Of a DNA stretch of 64,000 nt, positions 36,782 to 56,382 are shown piece by piece (position 1 is the stretch's first letter; each line of letters starts with the position of its first letter). The notes below the pieces were generated by a model. It was not told where the DNA came from, made no database searches, and worked only from the letters and a program-made list of their open reading frames with translations. Made by a program: the position numbers and the translations under genes. The DNA comes from Ectocarpus siliculosus (Eukaryota; Sar; Phaeophyceae; Ectocarpales; Ectocarpaceae), in contig FN648505.1 in NCBI GenBank assembly GCA_000310025.1, positions 47,436 to 111,435 of the forward strand, given 5' to 3'.

Positions 36782-36898
36782 AAGTCTCATCGTTCGAGAT
36801 CCGTTCGGTGGAGAACCGAAAATAAATCATGACCCGTCCCCGATCTTGAGCAGCAGTTTACGCCTCCTGTGGCCGGCAAGAGTCGACCTTCACTGTAC
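36782..36898. repeat. Repeat R copy 2, left piece
   Basis: Homologous to 35305-35518 (gtctcatcgttcg, then cctcctgtggccggca and cttcactgta). It ends at the LTR of the young gypsy element. The last four bases, gtac, are the target-site duplication. Confidence 0.75.
36895..36898. repeat. Target-site duplication of the young gypsy, left
   Basis: The bases gtac directly precede the left LTR and recur directly after the right LTR at 51660-51663. The uninterrupted R copy has a single corresponding site near 35516-35522. Confidence 0.85.
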
Positions 36899-37207
36899 TG
36901 TAATGGTTTTTGACCCCTTCCTTCAGAATCAATCACCTTTGAGCTGTGTGGAACTCTCTTGTCCGACCACAGTAGCAGGTTGTTGTTGCTTTCCGTTGTT
37001 CTCTTTCTCTTGATTAACGCTTTCCAAGCCAACTCACAATATCCCACGCACACACGATCATAGATCGCCTGTACGCACACACTGAACAGAAGGGCACATG
37101 TCTCGGCATAAAGCCCTGATCTAGCATGACGTCACGTCTTAGCATCCGACGGCGCCAAATAACCATGATCAACCACGATCACATGTCTACCTCCAAATAC
37201 CATAACA
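36899..37207 (-). repeat. 3' LTR of the young gypsy
   Basis: 309 bp, by eye identical to 51351-51659. In element orientation it starts TGTTATGG and ends CCATTACA. It contains the palindrome tgacgtca near 37127-37134, the core of a cAMP-response-type (bZIP) site, which in the 5' copy could drive transcription. Confidence 0.95.
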
Positions 37208-38095
37208 ATAGCCCACCCTGAGTGGACGTAGATGCAGATACAGAAGCAAACCTCGGAGGGACTCTAGTCAATCAAGAGGATTGCGGGATGGATCGAAGAT
37301 ACGACAACTCAAAACCCTCACCCGCACCTCTCCGTTAACCAAACCAAAGAAGCGGAACCAAGAAAGAAGAAAACACAGAAGCCGGGGCGGCAAAGTCGGT
37401 GGATAAAATCGGTAAAAGGCACATGGGCGCGAAAAATAACCAAAACATCCGAACCGAAAAGACCATAACACGAAGTAACGAAATCGTGAAGAGAAAATCA
37501 CAAACGATCTCGTACGGATGAACCGATCGAATACGCAATCAAGTAAGCCAGAACCTTACGGGAAGGGGGGCTACGATGCGATCGAGTGCTGAAATGTAAA
37601 CATAAAGAATAAGAAACGAAAACCGAGCCTGCAAAGGATCAAACGACATGGAAAACCGTTAGGGGTCGACCAAAATCGAGAAAAGCAGGAAAAGAGGGGG
37701 TTTCCGGGGAACGTAAACAACGGCCAAAGAAAAGGACAGGAACCAACGCCAAAAACAACGTTCGCATGTCACGATACAACGTGCTTGCGATCGGGGTGGG
37801 GCGAGGAAAACAATCCTACGTGTACGTCAAGGCCAATTGTATGAAGAAAAATGCTAAAGAAAGTACCAAGATGGAACACGTTGGCCGTGGCATGCAATAG
37901 AAGCACTGACGGAACGTTGGACCACAAAATATGCAAAGCAAACCATAGGGTGGGGAGTTAAATGATGCACCAAATTTGGGTGTCACCGCAACTAATGACG
38001 AACCTAGGTCGCATTGAAAAATAGGTAAAGGGGAGCGAAAACTTTCGACAACCGACCGAGAAGTGACAAACGGGGCGCGAAAGTACGCAACACAA
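37208..38095 (-). other. 3' non-coding region of the young gypsy
   Basis: Directly beside the 3' LTR is a modest purine-rich stretch (agggtggg on the minus strand, near 37211-37220) in the place of a polypurine tract. The remainder is A/G-rich on the plus strand with no supported gene. Confidence 0.6.
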
Positions 38096-38565
38096 AAGCA
38101 AGAGCCAGTCTCAAAGAGATTGAGAGGGCGAGCGGAAAGCATAAAGGAGCAATAGCCAGTCTCGAAATATTCGAGAGGGCGAGCTAGAAACATGCAGAAG
38201 CAATAGCCAGTCTCGAAATATTCGAGAGGGCGAGCTAGAAACATGCAGAAGCAATAGCCAGTCTCAAAAATCGATCGAGAGGGCGAGCTAGAAACATACA
38301 GAAGCAATAGCCAGTCTCGAAAATAGATCGAGAGGGCGAGCTAGAAACATACAGAAGCAATAGCCAGTCTCGAAAATAGATCGAGAGGGCGAGCTAGAAA
38401 CATACAGAAGCAATAGCCAGTCTCGAAAATAGATCGAGAGGGCGAGCTAGAAACATACAGAAGCAATAGCCAGTCTCGAAAATAGATCGAGAGGGCGAGC
38501 TAGAAACATACAGAAGCAATAGCCAGTCTCGAAAATAGATCGAGAGGGCGAGCTGGAAACATACA
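38096..38565. repeat. Minisatellite of about 51-54 bp, about nine copies
   Basis: Units share aagcaatagccagtctcg followed by a variable aaat or atag core and gagagggcgagctagaaaca. The right-hand units are nearly identical (53 bp) while the leftmost two or three are diverged, so the array grew from the right. It lies between the end of Pol and the 3' LTR. Confidence 0.9.
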
Positions 38566-38658
38566 GACAAACATACATAAACACAAACATGTAACACACA
38601 AACATATACACATACATATACATACACATAAAACAAGGAAAACAATGCCACAGTGCTA

Positions 38659-39852
38659 TCAGGCATCTATAGCCGTACCACGCGACTCGTCTACATTGCG
38701 TAAGATACCTCGCATGAAGGGACTACTTCGGTGCAGCTGAAGGCACCAAGAACCACAAACAGCTCCCAAAGCTGTCGTGTAGCGCGAAGGGGAGAGGGTG
38801 ATCTTGACAGGTCCAGGGTCATCCAGGAAGCGAACGACGAAGACGTTTGTAGTCGGAGTATGTCCGGAGATTTTCCCTAGCCACCATAGAGCGTCTTGAG
38901 CCTTGTACCAGAAGTGTGCGCCTACAGGCAGCACGGTGTTGCGAAAACGGCGGGCCCAAACATCGCGGGGAACATATTCGTACCCGGGCGACGAGGACCG
39001 CTCGCCTTTGATGCGAGACAGTTCACGTTCCGCTGCGCCAATGCGCATGCGACGATACAGACGGTTAGTCTGCCGGTGTTGGTCGGGTGTACCAGCCCAA
39101 TACAGAAGAATCTGTTTTCGGGAGTGTTGGAGGTCCATTTCTCGTTCCCACGAGGGCCGCAGAAGACCTTTCCAGTGGGTCTCGTACATGACTGCGATAA
39201 CGCCGCCACGTCCTCGAACCGACTGGTGTCCCGTGATTTTCTCAACCTCGAGCCTGCGGACAGGCGCCGAAACATCGTCCGCGGTAACATGGTACGGCGG
39301 AGACTTCGTCGTGTAGTTGTTGAGAACATACTGCGTGAGGCCTGCAGGCAAGAACCGAGGCATGTCGTCACTATCGTGTGGGTTCGCACACGGTTTGCAA
39401 CGAGCGACAGAAACTCGGCGCTTGGCATCCACTCCGGGCATATCGGAGGGAAGATCCAAATACAGGAGCTTGTCAGCCACCGGGCTGCCATCGGGAGCCT
39501 TGTTGCAAGGACCGACTGCTAGGATTTTAAAAGGACCTGTCCAATTCAAGGACAGCTTCTTCTTGAGTACCTGGGAGTCAGCGTCTGCGCGGGCCTTGGA
39601 AGTGAGTTTGGCACCTTGGCGGATGGTAGCCAAATAGTTGTAGACCCACACCCAACCACCGGTAGCGTAAACGGGTAGTTTATGTAAGGCATCAGACAGT
39701 TTCGAGTTCCGTTTTTCCATACGGGAAACTGTGAGTGCGTGTTGTTCACGCACTAGCTCGTAGGAGCGCCGTTGCCGATCGGCGGCAAGGTTGCAATACT
39801 CGAGCTGATCGCGGGCAAGCGACTGGTGACCACGTAGCGTAAATGTTGTCAA
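38659..39852 (-). CDS. pol: Gypsy integrase C-terminus: chromodomain and Tudor-like tail
   Basis: The real coding enters this frame at about 39845, where an extra base separates it from the integrase core. The first 100 residues are the integrase GPF region (LSLNWTGPFKILAVGP). A chromodomain follows at about 39250-39095: VEKITGHQSVRGRGGV...YETHWKGLLRPSWE...LQHSRKQILLYW. Chromodomains on gypsy integrases direct insertion to marked chromatin. The last 80 residues, VGAHFWYKAQDALWWLGKI...VVRFLDDPGP, have a Tudor-like pattern. Carrying both readers in one tail is unusual. Stop at 38659. Confidence 0.8.
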   Translation of the reverse strand: MTTFTLRGHQSLARDQLEYCNLAADRQRRSYELVREQHALTVSRMEKRNSKLSDALHKLPVYATGGWVWVYNYLATIRQGAKLTSKARADADSQVLKKKLSLNWTGPFKILAVGPCNKAPDGSPVADKLLYLDLPSDMPGVDAKRRVSVARCKPCANPHDSDDMPRFLPAGLTQYVLNNYTTKSPPYHVTADDVSAPVRRLEVEKITGHQSVRGRGGVIAVMYETHWKGLLRPSWEREMDLQHSRKQILLYWAGTPDQHRQTNRLYRRMRIGAAERELSRIKGERSSSPGYEYVPRDVWARRFRNTVLPVGAHFWYKAQDALWWLGKISGHTPTTNVFVVRFLDDPGPVKITLSPSRYTTALGAVCGSWCLQLHRSSPFMRGILRNVDESRGTAIDA

Positions 39853-41080
39853 AAACGGTCAGTGGAAACCTGGGAAGGCGCGCCATATGCACCTCATTGG
39901 GCGCCAATCCTGTTGCAGCGCTAACGGAGTTGTTGTACGCGAATTCAACATGAGGGAGATGAATGTCCCAATCATCTTGTCGTTCGTTCACAACCATCGC
40001 CAGCATCTGGGCCATGGTGTGGTTCACGCGCTCAACTCCTCCGTTGCCGCTAGGGTGGTACGCGCTCGTCGTAATTTTTCGGACGCGTAGCAATTTTAGG
40101 ATGGCAACCGACAGTTTGGAGCAAAACTGCAATCCATTGTCAGAAAGAATGCTGAGGGGGCATCCCCAAACAGGCATGTATTTATTGACAAGGACGTCAG
40201 CTGTACCTTCAGCTGTGAACTCGGCGTCAGTCACTGCGTACATATTGGCTCTCCGACTGAAACGGTCAGTGAATAGCAAAATATACGAGAAACCTCGCGG
40301 AGTTGTGGGAAGCGGACCAAAATAGTCGACGCTAATCGCGACCCCTGGTGCCGAAGGCAGAGGGATCGTGAGAATCGGCCAGCGAATAGTCTGGCGCGCA
40401 GTTTTGCGGGCCTGACATTTCAAACATCGCCGAATCCACCAACGAGTACTGATACTCATCCCAATCCACCAGTAAAACCTCTCAAGCAAGCTGAGCGTGC
40501 GAGCGGTACCAAGGTGGCAGAGGGCGTTGGCATGACAAGCTTGCATGACCCAAGGTCGCATTAACATGGGCACGTAAATACGAGTGGGTTCGTCATTCAA
40601 CAGACGTGCAGCTCGTCCTCCGGGACGGTCAGAAGAGACCGGGGGCTTGGTATTCTTTCGTACCAAGAGGCAAAGGCCATCGTCAGTGACGAGGCGTCCT
40701 TTATCTGCAAGCTCTCGAATATCCTCCAACGAGGGTCTATGCCTGGAGTGATATGACACTCTGGCAAAGAAATCGACAGGTAGACTCTGAGGGCGTTTGA
40801 GGAGAATGTAGCGGATGGTGGCTTCACACACCGGCTCTTTCTGCTGTTCCCGCGCCCAATCTGCACGCGTGTAGCGTTCGACGGACTCACGGAATTCTAA
40901 CTCTGCAGGATTGAGGACCATGGAATCCACTGCGGGCGTTGCCTTACCAGCTGCAGCAGCCGGTTGTGACAAACCCAACAGAGGACCCGTAGGGGCGTCG
41001 GTAACCGTCTCCGGCGGCGCTATAGGCACCGTTGGGACAGGTTCGACAGCAGGCTCAGGCGTGGTGGCAGCTGGTGTCAC
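39746..41080 (-). CDS. pol: Gypsy integrase, zinc-binding and catalytic core
   Basis: A Pro/Thr-rich linker leads to a His-His-Cys-Cys zinc-binding domain (HANALCHLGTARTL...CLKCQARK, about 40530-40415). The catalytic core has all three acidic residues: Asp in SVDYFGPLP, Asp in LSDNGLQF and Glu in GGVERVNHTM. These residues carry out DNA strand transfer. The frame goes out of register at about 39845, within DNIYATW, and the last 30 residues to 39746 are not integrase. The open frame begins before 41080: a break at a CCCCC run near 41129 separates it from the linker frame upstream. Confidence 0.85.
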   Translation of the reverse strand: MTPAATTPEPAVEPVPTVPIAPPETVTDAPTGPLLGLSQPAAAAGKATPAVDSMVLNPAELEFRESVERYTRADWAREQQKEPVCEATIRYILLKRPQSLPVDFFARVSYHSRHRPSLEDIRELADKGRLVTDDGLCLLVRKNTKPPVSSDRPGGRAARLLNDEPTRIYVPMLMRPWVMQACHANALCHLGTARTLSLLERFYWWIGMSISTRWWIRRCLKCQARKTARQTIRWPILTIPLPSAPGVAISVDYFGPLPTTPRGFSYILLFTDRFSRRANMYAVTDAEFTAEGTADVLVNKYMPVWGCPLSILSDNGLQFCSKLSVAILKLLRVRKITTSAYHPSGNGGVERVNHTMAQMLAMVVNERQDDWDIHLPHVEFAYNNSVSAATGLAPNEVHMARLPRFPLTVFDNIYATWSPVACPRSARVLQPCRRSATALLRASA

Positions 41081-41691
41081 TCGTGTTTGACGACGAGAAG
41101 CGCCTGCACGCGGAACGTGTGGGGGATCGACAAATCAGGACCGAAACCGTAGTTTACATCGGGTTGAGGCTGACCCGCAGCAGCCGCGGTTCGGCGACGC
41201 GTACGAGTAGAGATCAGTTCCGACGGATCAATACGATGCGGTTGCAACCGAGAGGTCGAAGGCGGCGGCAATGAGTCGGCGGCATCCAAACGATCAGAGT
41301 GGGAGCCGGCGTCGACAGTTGCGGTCGCATGAGACACGACAGGGGGCAACCGAGAGTTATCGTCGGCGGTCTGTGTGTCGTGGACAGGGAGCGCAAATGC
41401 AGCTGTATCCGTGTGGGGTCGCGCAGACGGTCCGTAAACCGTGGCGGTGTCCCTATACAATGGTCTCATCGGAGACACAACAGGAGAAGCTGAAGACCGG
41501 AGTGCCGGCACAGCGCCCTGTATTTTCTGGGTTGCAGCGGAAGTAACCTCAGGCACAGCAAATACGGAGTGGTCGGTGCAAGACAATGCACGATCGTCCG
41601 CAAGGTGTCGCAAAGGTCCTCGCGCATTGACGTACGGAAAAACACGAGCGACGAATTCTCCTGCAGGAGCATCAAGGTCGTCAATCCTCAT
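41077..41691 (-). CDS. pol: Linker between RNase H and integrase of the young gypsy
   Basis: About 205 residues, Ala/Pro/Ser/Thr-rich, with no recognised domain. Its frame actually enters from about 41785, because sequence upstream of the ATG at 41691 also reads sensibly (LPLTSDDFADFRKHGP). The switch from the RNase H frame occurs at a CCCCC run near 41783, and a second switch to the integrase frame at a CCCCC run near 41129. The ATGA overlap with the stop at 41690-41688 is therefore probably accidental. Confidence 0.6.
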   Translation of the reverse strand: MRIDDLDAPAGEFVARVFPYVNARGPLRHLADDRALSCTDHSVFAVPEVTSAATQKIQGAVPALRSSASPVVSPMRPLYRDTATVYGPSARPHTDTAAFALPVHDTQTADDNSRLPPVVSHATATVDAGSHSDRLDAADSLPPPSTSRLQPHRIDPSELISTRTRRRTAAAAGQPQPDVNYGFGPDLSIPHTFRVQALLVVKHE

Positions 41692-44642
41692 TCGAGGCCC
41701 GTGTTTGCGAAAATCCGCAAAATCATCGGAAGTAAGGGGTAGCCCACCAAAGCGGTGTTCTCGCTCGGGGGCGCCAGCCCACCCAAACCAGCGCCAGGCG
41801 TGATTTGCCCGGGTGATGCGTGACCTGTCGCTCGGATCAGATACACACCAACGTCTTCTGGGGACGTCAAACGACTGTTACCGTTGATGTCGGCGGCAGT
41901 AGGCTCAATCGGCAGACGAGACAGCATGTCAGCGTTTCCGTTGGAGGCACCTCGTCGGTACTCCAACGTGTAGCTGTATGCTTCAAGGAACTCAATCCAG
42001 CGTTGGACGCGTGGGTTGTGCTCGCTGATTTTTGACAAACTTTCCAGCGCCTTATTGTCGGAATAGATGCGGAAGTGTGTGCTACGAAGGTATTCGCGGA
42101 GACGCTTGATCGCCCATACAACGGCTCCTGCTTCGAGATCGAGAGCGGTCCAGTTGCGTTCAGCGTCGAGCGTGGCTCTGCTGATGAAAACGATCGGCCG
42201 TACCGAGCCGTCTTTCTGCTCTTGCTCCAGCGCGGCGCCGAGACCGTCGGAGCTGGCGTCACAGCAAAGACGTAAAGGGCGTGTACCGTCCGCAATAGCG
42301 TCCCAATCAGGAAACACTAAAATGGGCGGTTTCGCGAGCTCAGCCAGTAGGCTGCGAACAGTTGTTTCCATGTCGCTCGTGAAAGCGAAGGGAACACCTT
42401 TTTTGAGCAAGTGCGTAATGGACTTCACACGCTTGGCCATGTCTCTGAGGAAACGTCGGTAGTAGCTCAGACCACCCATGAGTGACCTGAGTTGCTTGAC
42501 GGTCGTAGGCATGGGCATACCTGCCAGGGCGGCTACTTTACGGGCGTTGGGGAGGACACCTTTCGAAGATATGGTGTGCCCCAAGAAGTCAGCCTTGGTG
42601 GTACCGATGGTGGCTTTCGAGGGAGAAAGTTTGAGGTCGTACTTTCTCAACCGTTCGAAGAGCGTGCGCATATTACGGACATGCTGCAGTGGGCCTTCGT
42701 CAAAAACAACGACGTCATCGAGGTATGCCTCGACTCCATCGAGTCCTTTGATTACTTCGTTAATCACTTTTACAAAGTGGCCTGCGGATTGGCTAGAACC
42801 CATCGGCATGCGGAGCCATTCGAACAAACGAGTGGGGGTCGCAAAAGCCGTAAGGGGGATAGTGTCCTTGTGGACAGTGATCTGGTGGAAAGAACCCGTG
42901 AAATCGAATAACGAGAAAATCGAACCTCTGTTGAGTTTCGTTAGAATCTCGTCGACTCGGGGGATGGGAAGTTGACCAAAGCTGCTGATATGGTTCAACT
43001 TTCGGTAGTTAACCGTGATGCGTATTCCACCAGACTTCTTTGGTATAACCACGATGGGGCTGGAATAAGGAGAGGTCGAGTGCTGAATTAGGCCAGCAGC
43101 TAGATACTGGTCCAAAATGGCATCGACTTGCTTTGCAACCAAAGGATTCATACGGTACGGTTTGGACGTCACAGGGGGACAATCCGGAGGTACTTTGATC
43201 TCAAACGGCATCAGGGAACAGGACCCTAAATCCGTCGAGGATGTGGAAAACACGTCTTGGAAATCATGTAAAAGATCACCAAGTTCTGTGATGACCTCTG
43301 GTGACCAACCAGGACCGTGTAAATCAAACTTAACCAACTTCAGGTGAGGCGGCAAGCGATTCCACAATGACTCAAAGCTAACTCTCTGATCAGCGCTCAA
43401 CCGCTCCATCACATGCTGTGGTGGCGGCGAGGGCGAAGTGTGAGCGGGGGCAGGGGCCGCAGGGGGTGATTTCCCTGGGTCCGGCACAGGAAGATCGGTG
43501 GATCGTAGGTTGTGCACGAAGGGATCGTGGCAACGCACCTGCGGATCGGCGGTCCTGTCCGCGTTATCCTCGGTAGAACCCAAAATAGGTCCAGGCACCG
43601 AACATGAAGTGTCAGCTTCGTCACTAAACTGTTGTTCTAAATGCTCTACCGGGACGCGCATCAGCGGGGCGGCAGCAGTACCGAGCAAGTCTCCTGGCTC
43701 AAGTTCTGCAGCGCCCGCGAGCGGCACAAACTGACGCCCGTCGGAGACAAAGATCTCTTCGTTCGACGAAACATCAGGCAACATGTCGACAAGGTATTGA
43801 CCGGTCAGAGCCGGTGTACCGTTGGAACGCACCAAGTTGACTTCAATCATTTGGTGGTCGTCTGACAATGAAGTACCCGTTGGCCCTGCATAACGGAGCT
43901 GGAATTGGTCCGCCGGGGCTGTGAAATCGGGCACATACGCGACCGCAGCAGAATCATCCTGGTGGGCAAGCGTATATTCACCAAAAACGCGATTGTCCAG
44001 TGGCCTCGGAGGCAACATACGGTACGTGCGAGTGTTAAATCGCATGAAACTATCGCGTCCCAATAGGATGGGAAACTGCATGGTGTTTGCAGGGACGATG
44101 TGCGCCCAAACGGCAAGAGAAGCCGAAGGCGTATCACCGTGGAAAAATTGCACACTCAGACGGACTGTATCAGACGTCTGAAGAGACTCGGATTTACCAA
44201 AACCTCCCCAAGAACGTGAGTTACCGTGCGATATGCAAGCCTCTGAGATGGCTCCCATGGCTTTGAGGGTACCGACAGCGTTGCTGTTGATGAACGTGGC
44301 CGGTGATCCTGAATCGAGCAGAGCGGCGCAACCATATTGTGATTTGGCTGGCCCAGCGTGGATTTTGACTCGAGTCGTAAATGAAGCGTCGTCAACTGTA
44401 ACAACACCACCTACGAGGCAAGGACCATGCTCAGCGAGCAACGGTACACGATCTTCCTCATGATACTCAGCGGACGTAACCGCGAGAACTTCAGCGCTGT
44501 GATCCCTTGGAACATGCGCTGATTTTATGCGGTAACCTGACGACGGGGCGGCCTCCTCGGCGGCAGCCGTCGAAATACGCTCTTGCGTTGCAGGGTTAAC
44601 CTCATGTATTGTATTCCGGAGCTGAGCGTCGGACGAAACTGT
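41688..44642 (-). CDS. pol: Gypsy protease, reverse transcriptase and RNase H
   Basis: The aspartic protease motif LLDSGSPATF is near 44310, with the ILLGRDSFMRFN block near 44060. A 200-residue spacer leads to an RT with all main blocks: LIQHSTSPYSSPIVVIPKK, LFDFTGSFHQI (catalytic Asp), and YLDDVVVF at about 42728-42702 (catalytic Asp pair), then FLGHTISSKG. RNase H follows with LCCDASSDGLGA, an NWTALDLEAGAV block holding the Glu, YSDNKALESL, and NADMLSRL. All active-site residues are present. The frame is open upstream to 45068, but bases before about 44650 code the NADAR domain in another frame; a +1 shift between 44671 and 44605 would join them. The end beyond about 41785 is out of frame. 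Confidence 0.88.
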   Translation of the reverse strand, partial: TVSSDAQLRNTIHEVNPATQERISTAAAEEAAPSSGYRIKSAHVPRDHSAEVLAVTSAEYHEEDRVPLLAEHGPCLVGGVVTVDDASFTTRVKIHAGPAKSQYGCAALLDSGSPATFINSNAVGTLKAMGAISEACISHGNSRSWGGFGKSESLQTSDTVRLSVQFFHGDTPSASLAVWAHIVPANTMQFPILLGRDSFMRFNTRTYRMLPPRPLDNRVFGEYTLAHQDDSAAVAYVPDFTAPADQFQLRYAGPTGTSLSDDHQMIEVNLVRSNGTPALTGQYLVDMLPDVSSNEEIFVSDGRQFVPLAGAAELEPGDLLGTAAAPLMRVPVEHLEQQFSDEADTSCSVPGPILGSTEDNADRTADPQVRCHDPFVHNLRSTDLPVPDPGKSPPAAPAPAHTSPSPPPQHVMERLSADQRVSFESLWNRLPPHLKLVKFDLHGPGWSPEVITELGDLLHDFQDVFSTSSTDLGSCSLMPFEIKVPPDCPPVTSKPYRMNPLVAKQVDAILDQYLAAGLIQHSTSPYSSPIVVIPKKSGGIRITVNYRKLNHISSFGQLPIPRVDEILTKLNRGSIFSLFDFTGSFHQITVHKDTIPLTAFATPTRLFEWLRMPMGSSQSAGHFVKVINEVIKGLDGVEAYLDDVVVFDEGPLQHVRNMRTLFERLRKYDLKLSPSKATIGTTKADFLGHTISSKGVLPNARKVAALAGMPMPTTVKQLRSLMGGLSYYRRFLRDMAKRVKSITHLLKKGVPFAFTSDMETTVRSLLAELAKPPILVFPDWDAIADGTRPLRLCCDASSDGLGAALEQEQKDGSVRPIVFISRATLDAERNWTALDLEAGAVVWAIKRLREYLRSTHFRIYSDNKALESLSKISEHNPRVQRWIEFLEAYSYTLEYRRGASNGNADMLSRLPIEPTAADINGNSRLTSPEDVGVYLIRATGHASPGQITPGAGLGGLAPPSENTALVGYPLLPMILRIFANTGLE

Positions 44643-45636
44643 GTGGTGGAAGTGTCGGCGTCGGCGCGTGCTCTCGGAGTAGGTCTCGAACAACCTGCAG
44701 GCTTTTGCCGAGCAGATTGGAGCCCCGCCATAAAGAGGGTTGGATTGCAGCAGGATCATCCGCGCGATGTCCAATGCCCCATATGGCATCGAATGGGCTA
44801 GCTTCGACGAGCATTTTGTCGCCGGTGCCCAAAAGATGTTGTCGCATAGCGGGATTTTGCGAAAATTTGTAGTAGGAGGCGACACGCACCACGTTTTCAC
44901 GCTCGCGCTCCCAAACAGCTTCATCAAACCCTTTAACTTGGCGTCCGTAACGCTTATGTTTAATCGGGTCAGAAACACGCATAATCCGCCGCAACGTATC
45001 TTGGTCGCCAAAGAGACGAGCCTTGGCAGCCGCGAAGAATTGTTCTCCACAAGAGTATTCCACACCATCTACAGTAAAGACGGAGGGCGTCCATTGCGAG
45101 AAAAACGACGGGGCTTGCCAGAACAACACCATGTCAGGTGTGCAGTACTCCTTGCTCGGATCAAACGCTGGTGGTGAACACCTGGCGTCGGTCGGAGGAG
45201 GAGGGTAGATACGAATACCAGCTATAGCGGAGGAGGGGGATGTCTGTTTCCCCAAGTCCTCTACTCTTCCAACAGCGCAACCCGGTGGGGGTGTATAGTC
45301 TGTAGTGCTTTCGCTAGAATCCATCACGTTGGAGACATGACGGACCTCCCTTGACGAGGGTCGCGAGTTTTTCGCTGTTTGTTCAGCGAGGGGCGCAATC
45401 GGAGCGTCCTCCGAATACGGTGTTGTCAGCACCTCCGTGGTCGCGGTTGGGGACCGCTCAGTTTTGGTACTCCGCGAATCGCAAACCACGGGAAATCGAC
45501 GCGTATTTCTTTCAACGCAATCGGTCATACTCGCTTCACCGTGCGGCGAGTGACTTTTATTACCGTCTCGAGTTTCCATCGGCTGTATCGCCGCAGGCTG
45601 TCGATGACCCGTACGTAGTGGACATGTCCAAAGCAT
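44602..45636 (-). CDS. NADAR (YbiA/COG3236-like) domain protein within the gypsy element
   Basis: Residues 1-165 are Ser/Thr/Pro-rich spacer. Residues about 169-322 (45132-44671) match the NADAR fold block by block: LFWQAPSFFSQW, TVDGVEYSCGEQFFAAAKA (Glu198 corresponds to the conserved active-site Glu), LFGD, RYGRQVKGFDEAVW, KFSQNPAMRQHLLGTGD, LVEASPFDAIWGIG, and a final W-x-G-x-N-LLGK-x-L-x-x-VR. NADAR proteins cleave N-glycosidic bonds: some act on a riboflavin-pathway intermediate, others remove ADP-ribose from guanine in DNA. The element's use of it is unknown. It lies between Gag and protease: +1 relative to the Gag frame and -1 relative to Pol. Start is uncertain; translation probably enters by frameshift near 45640-45575. 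Confidence 0.85.
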   Translation of the reverse strand: MLWTCPLRTGHRQPAAIQPMETRDGNKSHSPHGEASMTDCVERNTRRFPVVCDSRSTKTERSPTATTEVLTTPYSEDAPIAPLAEQTAKNSRPSSREVRHVSNVMDSSESTTDYTPPPGCAVGRVEDLGKQTSPSSAIAGIRIYPPPPTDARCSPPAFDPSKEYCTPDMVLFWQAPSFFSQWTPSVFTVDGVEYSCGEQFFAAAKARLFGDQDTLRRIMRVSDPIKHKRYGRQVKGFDEAVWERERENVVRVASYYKFSQNPAMRQHLLGTGDKMLVEASPFDAIWGIGHRADDPAAIQPSLWRGSNLLGKSLQVVRDLLREHAPTPTLPPHSFVRRSAPEYNT

Positions 45637-46273
45637 CGCTCGAGGTGGCTAAACCCGGCGACACTTCATGTATTGTCGACAACGTAGGTGTCTTAACGGT
45701 CTTCCACGAGGACGTCTGAGCGGACCTCTTGGGCATGCTCGACAATCCCGACCTTCCGTACCCGCACCTCAAACCGACCCTTGCATTCGTGTAGCCAACA
45801 CGTAATGGTTCAGGCTGGTTTGCGGGCGGCAACGTGGTGTAATCGTGGGTTGTGCAAGCTGCTCGAGCTGTGTTAAAACTCGGGGAGCCGCCTTCAAGAC
45901 AGGTCGCTCCTTGAGTTCCTAACCTTGGGGTATATTTACTGATGACAGCGCTGAAGCTGCCGCGTGTGCAAGCTGCTCGAGCTGTGTTAAAACTCGGGGA
46001 GCCGCCTTCAAGACAGGTCGCTCCTTGAGTTCCTAACCTTGGGGTATATGCATTGACGACAGCGCTGAAGCTGCCGTGATCGGGAGTGTGGGCTACACCA
46101 TCTTCACCCGATGAGGTCGAAGCACTACCGCTTGTAGCGGAAGTGTCGGTTGTAGGAACAGGAGTGGTACACTCGACCGTACCTACTATACGCGCATCCT
46201 GCGACACATATCTAGCTGCTCCCTGTTTTGCCATCGGCGGGTCGGGGAGTAACGACAAGCCGCCGTTGGGCTG
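45560..46273 (-). CDS. In-frame Gag extension after a TGA stop
   Basis: After the Gag stop (TGA at 46276-46274, followed by CAG) the same frame stays open for 237 codons to 45560. It is Ser/Thr-rich and contains a 37-residue tandem duplication (GSFSAV...YTPRLGTQGAT...) encoded by 45853-46073. Long continued coding in the same frame suggests readthrough of the TGA, or a recent Arg/Gln-to-stop change. It then overlaps the NADAR frame, which is reached by a +1 shift. Confidence 0.55.
   Translation of the reverse strand, partial: QPNGGLSLLPDPPMAKQGAARYVSQDARIVGTVECTTPVPTTDTSATSGSASTSSGEDGVAHTPDHGSFSAVVNAYTPRLGTQGATCLEGGSPSFNTARAACTRGSFSAVISKYTPRLGTQGATCLEGGSPSFNTARAACTTHDYTTLPPANQPEPLRVGYTNARVGLRCGYGRSGLSSMPKRSAQTSSWKTVKTPTLSTIHEVSPGLATSSDALDMSTTYGSSTACGDTADGNSRR
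45853..46073. repeat. 111-bp tandem duplication in the Gag extension
   Basis: The block beginning gtgcaagctgctcgagc starts at 45853 and again at 45964. A period of 111 bases (37 codons) keeps the reading frame. The copies differ only in a few bases around the tatatttac/tatatgcat segment. Confidence 0.9.
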
Positions 46274-49200
46274 TCAGTTACCAGCATTATACGTTCCAGG
46301 AGTGCGGGCATTTGGGTTGGAGTCTACGGGGAGTCGGCTGTTGATTCTTAACGCCGGCTGCGCGTGTGTGGCAGACGCTGGAGCAGTACCTGCATGAGGC
46401 TGGTATGCTACCAATGTGTGCTGTTGGGCTGGTGCACTAGATTGCAGCAGGCCCTGTGGTGGCGGTTGATGCCACGTCTGAGTGTATTGTTGCGGGTTTG
46501 GAGCGTTACCAGCGTATTGAACTCTATGAGCTGGTCTGTGGGAACGGCGCCGGTTTTGTTGGCCATTCGAGTTGCGTGAGCCGTGTGTTGTGGCAGTCGC
46601 AGGCTTAGTCCTCCAGGACCGCAAGCGCTCTTGCCACAGGCGAAACATGTCATCACCATCAGTCAGTGCACCTAAATCTGGGTTCAGGACACCACTAGCA
46701 TTGGTGAAAGGCTGTTCACAGTGTTTGATGGAGTGGCCAGACCCGTGACAGTTTAAACAACGGCCAGCATTCGCGCTGAACGCTTGTGCTCGGTCAGCTC
46801 TAGTCCTAAGGAGTGGTGTCCAAAGGGGGGGGAGTTGACGTTTGAAACCACTGGAAACAACAGCATGCACTGTCTCCCAATGATCATCGGTGGCCAGCGG
46901 CCAAGCATCGTAGCTAACACAAAACACATCATGAATTGGCTCTGCCTTAACACGCATGACCGATTTGCCACGTGCTCCCTGGGAGCTCCAAGGCTGCTGC
47001 GATTGCGTCGTCGAACGTCCTTGAGAACGACTACCGCCTTGCGAATGCAACGATAATCCACTAAGCGAGAGCGCAGCATATTGCTCGCCATTCTCTGCCT
47101 TAACCTTAGAGGTCGTGAACTCATTCAGCACTCGCCACATCTCATCCAGACTACTGTAGGGTTCTGCCGCGGTACGCTTTGCACCCGGAAAACAGTCAGA
47201 CATCATCACAGAAAACTGGTCGTTGATCTTATTCCTTGTGATCCCGACAATCCAAGTCTCGTTAGGGCTAAAAAGACTGGAATAGTGCGTGATGTTGTTC
47301 ACGGCAGTACGATACTGTCGCAAAAATTCTCCAAACGTAGTTCCGTTGGGAACACCGAACGCATTCAGCGTTGTCAAGGCGTCTCCACGGTCTTCATGCT
47401 TGAAGTGGGACGCGATCAGACGAAGAAGGTGCTTGAAAGCTTCTCCTCCGTTCATACCGTCGTCCATACGCTGCTTCACCTGCACAAACATACCATTGAT
47501 AGAGCTGATAAGGTCACCAGTGGTTTGCTTGTTTGGGGATACGGCGCTAATGATGGCTTTCTTCAGCGGGTTTTCCCACCCGCGAACCCACGTATCGGAT
47601 TTGTCAAAATCGATGAAAGGGTCAGCCTGTTGCAAGACATCTAAGGCTGCAGCCTTGATAGAATCTAACAACTGCGGCACTGCCTGTTTCAGGTTTGCCG
47701 GCCAAGGGATCGATGGTTGTATACGAATATCCCTAAACTTCGTCTTGATGTACTTCGCACTGATCTCTCTGATTCGTGCAGCTTCTGCAAGCGCGTCAGC
47801 CTTGTCTATCTCTACTTGGCGAGCACGAGCAGTCGTTGACGACAACGGTTGGGCGTTATGGCCTACGAATGCACTGTTGCGTGACATCAATGAGTGGTCG
47901 CTGGCTGCGACATCACCCAACAACGGTACTTGCCTGTCATCTCGCGGGGCTGTCAGGGGTTGGTCCAGACGCTCTTCCAGTGGAAGATCGGTGGTCAGGT
48001 GCGGTTGGTTTGCGTCAAAGATCTCCTCCGGGGAGTGATCCTCGTAGGCTGGTGCCTCCGAGCCGTCGCTGCTTCGGTGCCCGCGGCGGTGTCCGCGGCG
48101 GCGTGGGCTACAGCTCCTGCTATGACTCCGGCTACGACGGCGGCCACGACTCGTGTCCTCCTTGCTGACGCTTTTAGTCGCCGAAGGCTTGCGTTCCACA
48201 GCGACCTCCTCTCGGCGGCCGTTGGACCCAGAGCGCTTCTTGCCACGTTTGCCTCGATTCGATCTTTTGGAGCTGCTGGCGGCCACGGAAGCCGACGCGT
48301 CACTTTCGCTAGCTGCGGAAGAGCGCGACCCTCGCGAACCGCGTTGACGGTGACCGTTATGGTTACCACGTCCACGGTTGCTGGAAGAACCTCGACCACT
48401 ACCACGACCACGGCTGCCACGGCTGTGGGAGCTGCTGCTGTCGGTAGCGCGCTCCTTCTTCACCTTGCGGTGAGTGACGACACGGAAATCGCCCGTCTGC
48501 TTGGCGAATGCTGCAGAGGCGCCAAACGTCGTTGGCAGAATCGAAGGGGGAAGGTACCAGTTGACCTCCGCCGGGCGGTAGCCACCTGTAAGGTTAGCGT
48601 AACCTCCTCTGAGCCCGTGCAGCAGACGCGTTACCGATTCGACTAACGGGGCGTCTACCGTAGGGGCATGAGCGACGTGATGCATGAATTCACGGAGAGT
48701 GACCGTAGGTCTCTCCGAGGTTTCTAACATCGTCGTCAGCACTGTAGCCGCCTTGGTGACTTGTATCCTGCATGCTTCCGTGAAGGCCTGCTGGTGTACG
48801 TGCGCGAAGTTAGACACCGGAATGTCAAGGAACAATTCATCCCCCGTTCGGAGGCTGAGATCCGGCGGTCCTTGCGCCATTTGGCTGTATGACGGTTGGG
48901 CCGGGGGCGGTACCACATAACCACCTCTAGCGATGGACAGTGGTGGTTTCAGCAACAGCCCTTGCTGCTGGTATGGCAGACCGTACCCCGCAGGGCCGGC
49001 GTGCTGGGGCTCGGAACCAAGCTTATTCGAGCCGGTGAGCGCCATGTGCTGCGAACCAAATCCTGAAGGACCGGTGAGCGGGTGCTCCGCACCAAACCCC
49101 TGTGGGTCGGTGGGAGAGTTTCGCGTCGAACCAAATCCCGTAGGATTGGTGAGCGAGGGGCTCTGCGAACCATACCCAGAAGGGTAAGTGCGAGCCTGCT

Positions 49201-51229
49201 TCCAACCATGCTCTTGCGAGCCGGTGAGCTGGTGGGGCGAAGCCTGAGCGGCTCCTCCCATACCGCTAAATTGTCGGGCGACGCTGGCCCGTGCGGCAGC
49301 AGCGGCGGTGGCCTGGTCGACGCACTCGGCCTGTCGCGCGCGTGTCTGCTCGCGCTGCTGTGTGAGCTGTCGGATTTGCTCATCCAACGTAGCACTTGCC
49401 TTGTTGGCAGCGCTCAAGGCCGCTTCAGCCTCTCTCGTTTGTGCAGCGACTTCCTCTTCCGCCAACGCTCGCGCTTTGGCATCCGCGTCACGCTTGGCCT
49501 CTTCGACATTGCGGAACATGATGTGCGTGTTGTCGAGCATGGACGCTTGCTCCTCGGCGTCCATTTTAGCCCACGCGGAAGGCTTCATCACACCCCTGAG
49601 GACTGCCGGCATCGGCTGCTCCTCTCGAGCAGTTGTGCCTCCCATATCGACGTCAGGCGTACCATCGGCAGCATCAGCTGCCTCAGGACCGCTCGCCACC
49701 AGCGGCTCGGCCATATTGGTTACTCTCGATGCGGAACCTTTGGAGAGAGTACGAGGGAGGGTTGGGCCAGCAGGCGATATTGCGTTACCATGGGGAACAA
49801 CTGGGTGTAGTCGTTTTGCGGTAATTTCCTTGGCAGGCACGGGAAGCCTTGGAGCGGCCGTTGACCGTGCTAGATCGAGAGCGTCAGATGGTGGTTTACC
49901 AGCTAGACGCCGTGACCGTCTAACAACAGGCATACTCGTAGTTTGCACGCGTGTGGGTGCAAATGGGAGAGGGGGGGCTGCTGTAGGGGTACGATCTTCG
50001 TCTACGGCGGGTAAAGATACACTAGATACAGGTTCTACGTCTCTGCCTGCAATTGCATCGGTACTAACAGGGGCAGAAGCGTGGTTCCCAGTCGGAACAT
50101 ATTCGCTGTCTGTGTATTCACGTGATTGTGGACGCGGGTACACAAGTGCCGCGTCGCGTGCACCATGCGCGGCACCAGGCGGGGCAGGGTTGCTGGAAGC
50201 AAATGCGCCGCTGGTGGCTTGCGGTGTCTCACCATCAGCGGATCTCAGGGTATCCGACTGCTGTGAGGTCGCAGTGGTTCTCAAACTCTGACAGCGAGAA
50301 CCGTCTCCATCCATCTCCGAAACATTTGTGGTGTTCTCGGAATGCGATAAAGAAGGGGTGTCGGCATGCAGCCGAGAGAACGTTTTGATAGTTTCTCGGG
50401 GGCTTGCGACAGCGAGACCAGGGGCAGAATCGCTCGAGGCGACCGCTCCGCTGGTGCGTTCTGACGTGCGTTCGACGGAGCCACTAACTCCTATCGAGTG
50501 CGTGTGTGAGGCATCGATCAAACTTGTAGAGTGAGAGCCAACACTATCCACATTCGGCACATATCCGCGCTCGGAATGGGATGCAGCCGGGCTGGCGTCG
50601 GAATAATTCAAACTCTGAGGTTCAAACATGCCGACAGCGACAGCTGGGCTACCAGGGGCAGGAGTACTAGACTCGACCGCGCCACTGGGGGCGTCCGACA
50701 CGCGCACAATGGAGCTGTGAGCTTCATTCGTGTGCGTGCGTGAGGCTTCAATCAAACTCGGAGAGCGAGAGCCTTCACCATCCAATTTCGGCACATTGCT
50801 GTGTTCGGAATTGGATGCGGGGTGTGAGTGTGCGCGTTGAACCACCGAGCGCATCTGCATTTCTGCAGGTGTCTCAAGGCGGTGTGCCACATCTGATGAC
50901 CAGCGGCGAGCTGAATCACGAGAGGGCACAGACCTGGAGCGCGGCGCGCGACCAAGGCCTTCAGTGTGCGATCGTGCAACATCATCTTCCTGAGAGTCTA
51001 CGTCTGCTAACGTGCGTTCGAACTGCGATCGCGATCGTGGCTGCTGCTGCTGCTGCTGAAAAGTCCGACCGCGAACATGCAAGAAGGCATTCGGCGAATC
51101 CTTATCAACACGGAGCGAGCTACGCGAAGCATGCGAATCATCATCATCAGGAGTGTTGTGCGGCGACAAAGGGAACGGGGTCGAAGCAGCAGAGTCGCTG
51201 CTACCTCGCGGCTCATCAGGAGCCGACAT
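46274..51229 (-). CDS. gag: Giant Gag of the young gypsy (1651 residues)
   Basis: The ATG at 51229 is 121 bases into the element, the first in the leader. The first 550 residues are disordered Ser/Pro/Thr-rich sequence with a poly-Gln run. A coiled coil spans about residues 556-650 (EEAKRDADAKARALAEEE), then GFGSQ-type repeats, an RS/RG/Lys-rich basic region at about 920-1065, a helical capsid-like region at about 1130-1345 (WENPLKKAIISAV, FGEFLRQYRTAVNNI) and a CCHC zinc knuckle at about 1486-1502 (CLNCHGSGHSIKHC), which binds RNA. Typical gypsy Gags are 250-500 residues, so this is three to six times longer. The frame has no break over 4.95 kb. Confidence 0.9.
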   Translation of the reverse strand: MSAPDEPRGSSDSAASTPFPLSPHNTPDDDDSHASRSSLRVDKDSPNAFLHVRGRTFQQQQQQPRSRSQFERTLADVDSQEDDVARSHTEGLGRAPRSRSVPSRDSARRWSSDVAHRLETPAEMQMRSVVQRAHSHPASNSEHSNVPKLDGEGSRSPSLIEASRTHTNEAHSSIVRVSDAPSGAVESSTPAPGSPAVAVGMFEPQSLNYSDASPAASHSERGYVPNVDSVGSHSTSLIDASHTHSIGVSGSVERTSERTSGAVASSDSAPGLAVASPRETIKTFSRLHADTPSLSHSENTTNVSEMDGDGSRCQSLRTTATSQQSDTLRSADGETPQATSGAFASSNPAPPGAAHGARDAALVYPRPQSREYTDSEYVPTGNHASAPVSTDAIAGRDVEPVSSVSLPAVDEDRTPTAAPPLPFAPTRVQTTSMPVVRRSRRLAGKPPSDALDLARSTAAPRLPVPAKEITAKRLHPVVPHGNAISPAGPTLPRTLSKGSASRVTNMAEPLVASGPEAADAADGTPDVDMGGTTAREEQPMPAVLRGVMKPSAWAKMDAEEQASMLDNTHIMFRNVEEAKRDADAKARALAEEEVAAQTREAEAALSAANKASATLDEQIRQLTQQREQTRARQAECVDQATAAAAARASVARQFSGMGGAAQASPHQLTGSQEHGWKQARTYPSGYGSQSPSLTNPTGFGSTRNSPTDPQGFGAEHPLTGPSGFGSQHMALTGSNKLGSEPQHAGPAGYGLPYQQQGLLLKPPLSIARGGYVVPPPAQPSYSQMAQGPPDLSLRTGDELFLDIPVSNFAHVHQQAFTEACRIQVTKAATVLTTMLETSERPTVTLREFMHHVAHAPTVDAPLVESVTRLLHGLRGGYANLTGGYRPAEVNWYLPPSILPTTFGASAAFAKQTGDFRVVTHRKVKKERATDSSSSHSRGSRGRGSGRGSSSNRGRGNHNGHRQRGSRGSRSSAASESDASASVAASSSKRSNRGKRGKKRSGSNGRREEVAVERKPSATKSVSKEDTSRGRRRSRSHSRSCSPRRRGHRRGHRSSDGSEAPAYEDHSPEEIFDANQPHLTTDLPLEERLDQPLTAPRDDRQVPLLGDVAASDHSLMSRNSAFVGHNAQPLSSTTARARQVEIDKADALAEAARIREISAKYIKTKFRDIRIQPSIPWPANLKQAVPQLLDSIKAAALDVLQQADPFIDFDKSDTWVRGWENPLKKAIISAVSPNKQTTGDLISSINGMFVQVKQRMDDGMNGGEAFKHLLRLIASHFKHEDRGDALTTLNAFGVPNGTTFGEFLRQYRTAVNNITHYSSLFSPNETWIVGITRNKINDQFSVMMSDCFPGAKRTAAEPYSSLDEMWRVLNEFTTSKVKAENGEQYAALSLSGLSLHSQGGSRSQGRSTTQSQQPWSSQGARGKSVMRVKAEPIHDVFCVSYDAWPLATDDHWETVHAVVSSGFKRQLPPLWTPLLRTRADRAQAFSANAGRCLNCHGSGHSIKHCEQPFTNASGVLNPDLGALTDGDDMFRLWQERLRSWRTKPATATTHGSRNSNGQQNRRRSHRPAHRVQYAGNAPNPQQYTQTWHQPPPQGLLQSSAPAQQHTLVAYQPHAGTAPASATHAQPALRINSRLPVDSNPNARTPGTYNAGN

Positions 51230-51332
51230 GCTGAAGCAGGGCCAAGGCTGTTGCCCTGCCGCTATTCAGCAGACGACTGCAAAAAAGCGAAAAAATCAAA
51301 ATCAATTGAACGCAAGAATCAAGCAACACGAC

Positions 51333-51350
51333 CAAAACCAACAACGCCAG
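51333..51350 (-). promoter_or_regulatory. Probable tRNA primer-binding site of the young gypsy
   Basis: In element orientation the bases directly after the 5' LTR read c, then TGGCGTTGTTGG. TGG pairs with the CCA tail of a tRNA, and one spacer base is common. I cannot name the tRNA from the sequence alone. Confidence 0.5.
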
Positions 51351-51659
51351 TGTAATGGTTTTTGACCCCTTCCTTCAGAATCAATCACCTTTGAGCTGTG
51401 TGGAACTCTCTTGTCCGACCACAGTAGCAGGTTGTTGTTGCTTTCCGTTGTTCTCTTTCTCTTGATTAACGCTTTCCAAGCCAACTCACAATATCCCACG
51501 CACACACGATCATAGATCGCCTGTACGCACACACTGAACAGAAGGGCACATGTCTCGGCATAAAGCCCTGATCTAGCATGACGTCACGTCTTAGCATCCG
51601 ACGGCGCCAAATAACCATGATCAACCACGATCACATGTCTACCTCCAAATACCATAACA
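51351..51659 (-). repeat. 5' LTR of the young gypsy
   Basis: 309 bp, identical by eye to 36899-37207. It contains the bZIP-type palindrome tgacgtca near 51579-51586. Gag starts 122 bases downstream of its end. Confidence 0.95.
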
Positions 51660-52267
51660 GTACCTTGTCTGTTTCGCCATGGGAATGGCTGGTTGAACAG
51701 CGAAAGAGGGTCCTGCGTGCTTTGCGCCACAACCTTTCTTTTTTTGCGTTTGTGATTTTCTTCCTGAGTTACCGTTGTACACAACATGCGGCTGCTGCTG
51801 TACACATACATGCGGTTGCTGCAGTATCTCGGTAGAGAGAGATCGGAACGGTTTTGATGTGAAGACAACAATAATATGCCCGGAATGTGCTGCAAATGTC
51901 GCAAAGTTATTGTCTCTGTCGTTTTGGGCTGCACCCGTTGCTCGCGTCCGCTCGTTATCCATGAAGAGCAACGGCAGCACAGCTGAAGAGACAGATAACA
52001 ACAGACGGTCCGCCTTAGTAATTTTTTGTTGTTGCTGCGCTGCATGCATGGGTGGTATGCATCGTTAAGCGCGTTGTTCTGGCTTACCTTGAGTCTGCTG
52101 CGTACTCGTAATTTGATCGATGAGGTAGGCAGGACAATCGTATTGATTGACGTAGTGAGGTATGATGACCAACAGTCAGTCTGCTCGTTCGTGCAGCGGT
52201 GCGCATCTATCGCGGACGGCAAGCGTATTGAGATGATGGTTCGTCCGTGGTGCTACAATCATGTTCG
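51660..52267. repeat. Repeat R copy 2, middle piece
   Basis: Starts with the second gtac of the gypsy target duplication and aligns with 35519-36101 of the uninterrupted copy (ccttgtctgtttcgcc at the left, catgttcg against cacgttct at the right). It ends where the tyrosine-recombinase element begins. It has extra sequence absent from the other copy, for example tcggtagagagagatcgg near 51830. Confidence 0.75.
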
Positions 52268-53045: not shown

Positions 53046-54074
53046 CTACTCGTTCGGTGATATTAGCCTCCTCTTATGCCTACCCCACACCGTGCCTTCT
53101 CCTGGCTGCCGCTCGACTCCCTTATCCTTGTCCCCAAGTATACGTGACACCATTCGCGAGTCTTCCGTGTTGTCTACTGTATACGGTTTGTACGCATCAG
53201 ACTTCCACCTTCCTGCTCTCTGGATTACTCTTTCCGAAACATTGCCTCCAGCCGCCAAGGTGGAAGCCCCTCCAATTCGGAGCGAATGTAACGCAAAGTC
53301 TTTTGGATTTCGCCCTGACTTCTCGACAATCTCTCTCAACGCCCGAAGGGCTTGGTCATACTTCAGAACCTTCACTGCACGGCCGCTACGGTATGATGAT
53401 AGCGGCGCATCATCGGGTAACGTTGCATGACATGACAACAGCTCCAACATCAGCGCAACTGCTCCGCCGTCTGCTCTGTACCCCGATTGTGGGCCGTTAA
53501 TCTCATCCCGCGTACGAGCCCTGACCGACCCCGTCTGGTCCTGGTCACCCTTGTGTCCTCTAAAGTGCACCTCTATCTTATCCGCTTCTCGCCATCGGAC
53601 ATACTCCAACTGTTCCTCCCCAGAGAAAAACGCAACATCCCGTCTCGTGAGACAATGTACTGGATGCCCGACCCCGGAACTGTCAGCAAACATTTCGTCC
53701 GACCGAGTGATCAAGAAATAGCTTAAGCTCAAACATAACCACATCACGCGTCCTCCTATTCCCCAAGTGGGAATCATGCTCTCACCCCCTCGCAACATCC
53801 TCCAAGTGATCGGCAATCGAACTCGTTGACGTACCCCGGCGACCGCGTGGGACCTAGAAATGCCCCGAAGTGCACACTTCAGCAACGGCGACGACGTGAC
53901 TATCTCTACATGTGCTTCCACCCTGTGGTGGTACTGCACCGCTGCCAACTTCCCCGATATAGTCCCGGCCTGGTTTCCTTCCGACTCGAAACACCACGCC
54001 GCAAAGTCAATCAAGGCCCACACCATCTCTGTGTGCGGTGACTCTGCGCTCAAGAACTTTTCGTAACCCATCAT
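53046..54074 (-). CDS. Tyrosine recombinase of the YR element
   Basis: 342 residues. The N-terminal part is a helical core-binding domain (MVWALIDFAAWCFES, then LRGISRSHAVAGVRQR). The catalytic part keeps the signature residues: Arg in FLITRSDEMF, His-x-Leu-Arg in LHSLRIGGAST (near 53285), and AGRWKSDAYKPYTV with the nucleophilic Tyr. Enzymes of this type insert a circular copy by site-specific recombination, replacing the DDE integrase. The ATG overlaps the preceding RNase H stop as ATGA, so coupled termination and restart is plausible. The coding end at 53046 is 22 bases from repeat B1. Confidence 0.9.
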   Translation of the reverse strand: MMGYEKFLSAESPHTEMVWALIDFAAWCFESEGNQAGTISGKLAAVQYHHRVEAHVEIVTSSPLLKCALRGISRSHAVAGVRQRVRLPITWRMLRGGESMIPTWGIGGRVMWLCLSLSYFLITRSDEMFADSSGVGHPVHCLTRRDVAFFSGEEQLEYVRWREADKIEVHFRGHKGDQDQTGSVRARTRDEINGPQSGYRADGGAVALMLELLSCHATLPDDAPLSSYRSGRAVKVLKYDQALRALREIVEKSGRNPKDFALHSLRIGGASTLAAGGNVSERVIQRAGRWKSDAYKPYTVDNTEDSRMVSRILGDKDKGVERQPGEGTVWGRHKRRLISPNE

Positions 54075-55579: not shown

Positions 55580-56310
55580 CTGACGGTATGCACTCTTAGT
55601 TCCATCTTTGCTAGCAGTATGCGGGGAGGAACCGCAACATCACGCACGCCCAGCTTATGCAAATATAAAATGCGCCAGATGACCTCCCGAAGGACATGTC
55701 CGGTCTTACATTCCGGAATTGCTGACGTGTCGGTGTCGTCGTTGACGCCTCGCCCGGCGACAGCGTTGGTCAAATCGTGACATATTCTGACCTTCGACGC
55801 CGACGCAGCAACTGTTATCGGTGACACGCGAATGCCCGGAATGCGACTAGCCGCCTCCCGCGGAAATACAAACGCTCGACCGGCCAGAACGTCCTCCACA
55901 ATTTTTTTCCTGATCTCCACCGAGAATCTACTAGTCGAACTGTGGTTTCCGTACTCTATGGCAGCCCGCATCTCTCCTTGTCCGGTGACCGCTACAGGGG
56001 CTCCCTCGCTGACAATTTGAATCAACAGATCGATATTTGGAAATTCCTTCACGGTACCGAACCACCGCCGAACTTGTGCGGCTTCAACTCGCGGGCAAGG
56101 CAGTGTACGCAATGTTTCAAGCATGCATTCGAAATGCCCATCATTCCTGTCCAGCCATTCCAAATTCAAATCTGCTAAAGTGCCAAATGATCTTCGGATG
56201 GATTGAGAGTCGGTGGCCTGTGCTAACTGCTGTAATGCCACGGCGCATTCATCAAGGCTCTCAATCCCACCTTGCTGTCTCCTCGGCGCCGTCCTCGTCG
56301 GCTCCATCAC
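55564..56310 (-). CDS. Reverse transcriptase, N-terminal part, of the YR element
   Basis: The ATG at 56310 is 73 bases after the Gag stop and in the same frame as the end of Gag. The sequence leads through VRICHDLTNAVAGRGVNDD (the RT fingers block) to LLAKMEL followed by the Tyr-Arg of the catalytic block. The frame is lost there by one missing base near 55595, and coding continues in the frame ending at 54071. At the position of the first catalytic Asp (usually K-x-D) there is Glu, an unexpected change in an otherwise well-preserved RT. Confidence 0.8.
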   Translation of the reverse strand: MMEPTRTAPRRQQGGIESLDECAVALQQLAQATDSQSIRRSFGTLADLNLEWLDRNDGHFECMLETLRTLPCPRVEAAQVRRWFGTVKEFPNIDLLIQIVSEGAPVAVTGQGEMRAAIEYGNHSSTSRFSVEIRKKIVEDVLAGRAFVFPREAASRIPGIRVSPITVAASASKVRICHDLTNAVAGRGVNDDTDTSAIPECKTGHVLREVIWRILYLHKLGVRDVAVPPRILLAKMELRVHTVRCRWR

Positions 56311-56382
56311 AGCACCCTCGGCGGAAGGCGCGCGCGGGTAGCTCGTCGAGGTTGGCCCTGTCGCATGACAGAGCCCGTGTCC

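Follow-up and report, generated by a model that had tools for sequence, protein, structure and literature searches.

A YbiA-type NADAR domain within the Pol polyprotein of a Ty3/gypsy retrotransposon of Ectocarpus siliculosus

Structure of the element

The window analyzed here, a stretch of 64,000 nucleotides of Ectocarpus siliculosus DNA (contig FN648505.1; GC content 53.4%), contains a long terminal repeat (LTR) retrotransposon of the Ty3/gypsy type that encodes a NADAR domain. The element spans positions 36899-51659 on the minus strand and is bounded by two 309-bp LTRs, the 5' LTR at 51351..51659 and the 3' LTR at 36899..37207, which have TG...CA ends and are identical at 309/309 bases. The tetranucleotide GTAC abuts both outer LTR edges (36895..36898 on the left and 51660..51663 on the right) and was read from the sequence as a target-site duplication. 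Along the minus strand, the element encodes Gag with a CCHC zinc knuckle, a linker, NADAR, an aspartic-protease-type motif, reverse transcriptase (RT), RNase H, integrase and a weak chromodomain match. The LTRs and target-site duplication, Gag, and the order of protease (recognized by its motif), RT, RNase H and integrase identify it as a Ty3/gypsy LTR retrotransposon. A preliminary description of the window had placed a NADAR domain between Gag and protease in such an element and had considered its carrier recently mobile, and the gene order, the identical LTRs and the GTAC duplication bear out both points.

The Gag open reading frame (ORF; 46274..51229, 1651 aa) has no Pfam match and was assigned from its position and its CCHC knuckle, CLNCHGSGHSIKHC, at 46718..46759. 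It is followed, also on the minus strand, by the N-terminal linker of Pol (45560..46258) and by a 344-aa frame (44602..45636) that contains the NADAR domain (44674..45123). The next Pol frame (41688..45068) carries the protease motif LLDSGSPATFI (44289-44321), RT (Pfam RVT_1, 3.5e-24) with its YLDD motif (42702-42725), and RNase H (RT_RNaseH, 5.6e-31); its first part runs across the NADAR frame, where it is probably non-coding.

Identity of the NADAR domain

The Pfam NADAR profile, PF08719, matches residues 172-321 of the 344-aa ORF essentially end to end (profile positions 2-163 of 163; E 2.3e-47) and scores 161.7 bits, where the cut-off is 35.1. The fold is predicted to be YbiA-like, from a comparison that included a re-examination of Foldseek's top 105 chains. 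Further evidence comes from 48 genomic copies of the domain, namely that of the window and 47 other matches; these were chosen mostly from the top of the match list and from those in long frames, so the set is biased toward intact copies, and it includes two, L047 and L048, whose middle is scrambled. All 48 have Glu at the position of E125 in PDB 8BAU, the residue that marks the YbiA subfamily (PMC11543638; this and the other cited papers are represented here by parts of their text). The BC4488 subfamily of DarT1-associated NADAR antitoxins, members of the same superfamily that hydrolyze guanine-linked ADP-ribose, can be set aside, as the residue is Glu rather than Asp in 48/48 copies and DarT has no match in the genome. 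The 48 copies sort into six families, A (which includes the window) to F, with the two scrambled copies each ungrouped. Across families whose synonymous sites are saturated, the catalytic and ligand residues are invariant or nearly so, and the residues that hold ADP-ribose are kept. These features suggest that the domain is an entire YbiA-type NADAR ADP-ribosyl hydrolase under constraint, with predicted N-glycosidase activity.

It is possible that the domain is retained for a non-catalytic task, as an RNA- or nucleotide-binding module or one that assists folding of the polyprotein, and its internal position in Pol in the copies examined would suit such a role. We consider this very unlikely, given that the catalytic and ligand residues have hardly changed despite synonymous saturation.

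Place of NADAR within Pol

The preliminary description had treated the 344-aa frame as the unit of interest. NADAR does lie within it, but the frame is not an ORF in its own right in the family, and in the window copy it is the product of frameshifts on both sides: the linker and NADAR are in different frames, as are NADAR and RT, and further shifts precede the spacer, integrase and chromodomain. In other copies of the window family, a single frame runs from the linker through integrase, and a public protein, P0121 (1323 aa, 98-99% identical), contains NADAR, RT and RNase H together. Because these copies and P0121 carry one continuous frame, NADAR belongs to the Pol polyprotein as a resident domain at its N-terminus and does not form a gene of its own. 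The window copy does offer an ATG start and a stop ahead of the Pol frame, as a truly separate ORF at 44602-45636, expressed alone in the window family, would require. Such an ORF is highly improbable since in related copies one frame spans the linker, NADAR, protease and RT, and P0121 likewise joins NADAR to RT, and the separate-ORF reading was rejected on the frames of the other copies. The window copy is either a recent, frame-broken insertion or one that contains assembly indels; unbroken copies also exist.

The Gag-Pol junction

Gag and Pol lie in the same frame, separated by a single UGA followed by C (46274..46276). We examined this junction at 28 loci, consisting of the window and 27 of the loci L001-L028 (L006 coincides with the window copy). 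In 22 of them Gag ends at this UGA, which was placed at L017 by offset alone, and the same junction occurs in families A, B, D, E and F. Among the remaining six, L021 has no upstream stop before the contig end, L005, L014 and L028 are uninformative as their NADAR frame is shifted, L008 showed none, and L002, of family C, offers just a UAA candidate. The residues that immediately follow UGA are conserved, with GG and SQD(A/V)R common to families A, D, E and F, and PP common to A, E and F; at the DNA level, UGAC and the subsequent GG are invariant in five families. Conservation of these residues indicates that the stretch past the UGA is translated, probably through readthrough, and Pol is thus probably made by UGA readthrough at the end of Gag. 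The main text of the 2025 study of Ectocarpus elements discussed below (PMC12477816), as distinct from its supplements, mentions no readthrough, frameshift or stop codon, and its lone use of 'purifying' concerns another matter.

The UGA-C junction kept in five families is a likely readthrough site in a Ty3/gypsy lineage. Downstream of it, a 114-bp unit is tandemly duplicated in the Pol linker of the window copy (45851-46076), upstream of NADAR, and in L003 the UGA and NADAR lie 114 bases closer together than they do in the family's other copies.

Distribution and descent of the domain

A search of the genome (189 Mb, 492 contigs) yielded 150 scored NADAR matches out of 230 candidates, fragments included, and 135 scored RT matches with at least 58% identity to the window family out of 502 candidates. 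The preliminary description had named the absence or decay of the domain in all related elements as evidence that would speak against it. Instead, NADAR lies upstream of RT on the same strand in 115 of the 135 RT matches, with a median gap of 1285 bp, and a piece of it is present in 6 more; of the other 14, one is at a contig end and 13 have no NADAR at the expected place, absence being judged in an 801-base stretch set by the typical spacing. By hand count, 21 of the 150 NADAR matches contain an in-frame stop. A further 35 of the 150 have no RT within 4 kb among the matches listed, which incomplete match lists and fragments may explain. Two NADAR matches, G000:C3:3913787-3914242 and G000:C489:435177-435536, stand in frames of 10887 and 6365 codons, far above the others listed.

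The domain appears to have diverged along with its element. Identity and substitution comparisons between regions were made for four of the six families, and representatives of A, D, E and F are 58-79% identical in NADAR, 61-90% in RT, 67-89% in RNase H and 49-77% in the protease region, with Gag at 28-37% (three families). For NADAR and RT alike, E and F are nearest to one another, and D is distant from the other families. In the NADAR tree, a branch separates all 30 gypsy-labelled rows, together with the unlabelled P0021, from Streptomyces and others; its support (94/86) falls just short of the program's star. Six of these rows are our own and 24 are public, of which 18 have a protease or RT match and six (P0001, P0005, P0014, P0015, P0016 and P0032) carry the gypsy label without one. 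The simplest reading of these comparisons is a single acquisition of NADAR followed by vertical descent in the element lineage.

In the RT tree, two rows with no NADAR call, P0124 and P0127, sit among the NADAR bearers. P0127 starts only inside the protease region. P0124 is a gene model whose RT shares 75% identity with that of the window family and which has nearly 890 residues before the match. It is the sole row whose long upstream part counts against universal presence of NADAR; either the gene model is chimeric or NADAR may truly have been lost. P0124 also carries a PF14214 call.

Selection on the domain

Among the six families (15 pairs), the proportion of synonymous differences in NADAR (pS) is 0.73-0.89, which is saturated, and that of replacement differences (pN) is 0.15-0.36. 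Over four of the families, the pN/pS ratio of NADAR, 0.20-0.43, is close to that of RT (0.09-0.36) and not above that of the protease region (0.20-0.47). Within four families, changes found in at least two copies comprise 23 synonymous and 7 replacement (binomial p 7e-10 with 77% replacement sites, in a test that ignores transition bias), compared with 46 synonymous and 51 replacement among single-copy changes, and the shared and single-copy differences are distinct (Fisher p 0.006). These within-family counts omit codons with multi-base differences, stops, and families B (3 copies) and F (2 copies). The counts fit the pattern expected of a domain that purifying selection maintains for as long as its element is active and that decays after insertion, and they suggest such selection. 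The intact key residues that the preliminary description had taken as a sign of selection are kept, or nearly so, in the copies examined, with the catalytic Glu in all 48.

One alternative is that NADAR is a neutral passenger, a host or bacterial gene captured by chance, and the nearest relatives outside the element clade are indeed bacterial or unnamed. This is scarcely credible in view of six families that carry the domain, a level of constraint close to that of RT and the excess of synonymous over replacement changes among those that are shared. Constraint near that of RT across synonymously saturated families points to a probable importance of ADP-ribose chemistry for the reverse-transcribing elements of this algal group.

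Relation to known elements

The combination of NADAR with Gypsy Pol is already known. The preliminary description had taken the element as new; a Gypsy lineage with NADAR, exemplified by Gypsy-12_Ec32, was published for Ectocarpus sp. 7 in 2025 (PMC12477816, Genome Biol), and the present finding is the less surprising for it. Like the window element, to which we compare it by description and not by sequence, Gypsy-12_Ec32 is described as a Ty3/gypsy element with a YbiA-family NADAR at the Pol N-terminus; to its putative C-terminal chromodomain corresponds, in the window element, a match below the cut-off. That study suggests a role in RNA-intermediate processing and, as we do, finds the nearest NADARs outside Ectocarpus to be mostly bacterial. 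The nearest named Ectocarpus protein to the window-family NADAR is 66% identical, and two NADARs of Ectocarpus sp. CCAP 1310/34 are closer to other families (P0126, 91% to B; P0003, 90% to F). Judged by these element proteins and the GC content of the window, the host would most likely be a brown alga in or near Ectocarpus; a search with one window ORF (12933-13544) gave no match. The named Ectocarpus NADAR-RT proteins P0003, P0125 and P0126 fall among our families in the NADAR tree, as P0125 does in the RT tree.

NADAR domains have been described in other replicating elements. The Tx1 long interspersed nuclear elements (LINEs) of Crassostrea gigas also carry one, but these are non-LTR retrotransposons, and their NADAR-like domain is located in ORF1 and termed divergent (PMC12477816). 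Invertebrate nidoviruses, hepe-like viruses and picornaviruses likewise have NADAR inside a polymerase-bearing polyprotein, but they are positive-strand RNA viruses of animals that do not reverse transcribe (PMC9503650). The Phytophthora nicotianae NADAR (PDB 8BAU), crystallized alone, is presented as an orphan of the YbiA subfamily with no link to DarT and with no mention of a retrotransposon in the text available (PMC11543638). Our searches, which covered the broader NADAR-retrotransposon literature in part, returned no other relevant paper on NADAR with a transposable element, with gypsy or LINE ORF1, or on YbiA with retrotransposons.

Possible role of NADAR in the element

What might a NADAR domain do in Pol? 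The roles of NADARs across eukaryotes have been termed unclear (PMC11125620). NADARs hydrolyze guanine-linked ADP-ribose on DNA (PMC11543638) and RNA (PMC11833690), and the most likely reading is that the domain acts on the element's own nucleic acid. UGA readthrough would yield a Gag-Pol protein in which NADAR precedes protease, RT and integrase. The particle would then receive as little of the domain as of those enzymes, the dose being low because Pol appears to be made by readthrough. In the particle, the domain would most likely hydrolyze the N-glycosidic bond between ADP-ribose and guanine on genomic RNA or cDNA, which would stay free of adducts that block reverse transcription or mark the element. 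We hold with middling confidence, the case being evenly balanced, that a Pol-resident NADAR packaged in this manner clears guanine-ADP-ribose from element RNA or cDNA.

Several observations weigh against this reading or parts of it. Among the RT relatives, 13 of 135 lack NADAR at the expected place. Detail is available for four of the 13: L069 keeps the protease region, with no NADAR match over the preceding 3.3 kb, L070 and L071 match part of the protease-RT region alone, and L072 matches nothing. We infer that these four are truncated or rearranged copies. Constraint on NADAR is weaker than that on RT in the closest pair of families, E and F (pN/pS 0.20 versus 0.09), and the changes confined to single copies of family A appear neutral (20 replacement, 6 synonymous). 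The window copy itself bears several frame changes, and UGA was not seen in family C. A possible GGYGG/CCGCC stem starting 8-9 nt past the UGA is statistically unsupported in the five sequences considered (best z -1.19), and stem pair counts 3' of the UGA are no higher than in shuffles; we do not claim an RNA stem because these statistics do not support it. As for a host enzyme that modifies guanine, which is hypothetical, DarT has no match in the genome (a control search found it in 1/14 genomes), and PARP has four weak, exon-length matches (control silent in 14/14). Finally, YbiA-type NADARs also cleave riboflavin-pathway intermediates, which makes a metabolite substrate possible.

At the L069 locus (G000:C26:254069-254935), a frame of 1802 codons holds an RT that shares 74% identity with that of the window family, a possible case of loss or truncation.

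ADP-ribosyltransferases (ARTs) had no match in the genome, a result that is uninformative because the controls were silent too, and enzymes of the pierisin/ScARP type were not searched. The preliminary description had proposed that the element may use the domain to undo host ADP-ribosylation of its nucleic acid or proteins, or to act on a nucleotide metabolite; the NADAR identity and selection behind that proposal hold, and the undoing itself was not shown by the DarT, PARP and ART searches. It is nonetheless conceivable, if unlikely, that an unrecognized host guanine-specific ART attacks retroelement RNA or cDNA and that this Gypsy lineage has carried an antidote in Gag-Pol since one ancient capture. 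If so, the system would be a eukaryotic counterpart to the conflict between ART and NADAR in bacteria, and the particle itself would carry the hydrolase.

An alternative to a nucleic-acid substrate is that NADAR is a house-cleaning or signal-destroying N-glycosidase that acts on a small molecule, such as reactive riboflavin intermediates or defense-related free ADP-ribose derivatives, analogous to the dUTPase of some retroviruses. Riboflavin intermediates are NADAR substrates, soluble ADP-ribose derivatives have been proposed for viruses (PMC9503650, PMC11543638), and the residues kept here are those that hold ADP-ribose. On the other hand, fusion to Pol ties the domain to a complex that copies nucleic acid, which would fit a nucleic-acid substrate better, and guanosine-ADP-ribose RNA was cleaved by all tested NADARs (PMC11833690). 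We therefore regard a small-molecule substrate as possible but doubtful.

A further alternative is that NADAR strips ADP-ribose from proteins, including Gag, integrase or chromatin at the integration site, jointly with the C-terminal chromodomain. The weak chromodomain match is in keeping with such a role, but it falls below the cut-off, and the literature, as far as the available texts go, records no NADAR activity on proteins. A protein substrate is thus quite unlikely.

Other features of the window

The window protease region has no Pfam match and was called from its motif and position; that of a sister family has one Pfam match, below the cut-off (E 0.06). Beyond RNase H on the minus strand, a Pol spacer (41077..41691, from ORF coordinates) leads in another frame in the window copy to integrase (39746..41080), which has an H2C2 zinc finger (PF17921, 1.2e-13) and an rve core (PF00665, 6.4e-10). 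The putative C-terminal chromodomain (39097..39249) matches PF00385 with E 0.0039 and 17.5 bits, below the cut-off of 25.1. A putative polypurine tract, the purine-rich AGGGTGGGCTAT (37208..37219, minus strand), adjoins the 3' LTR, and the coding region is followed, ahead of that LTR, by a 53-bp tandem array (38092-38567; 9.1 copies, 94% matches). Just outside the element, at 53049-57874, are long minus-strand frames of 398, 522, 272 and 437 codons, which, at a guess from reading them, may belong to another transposable element.

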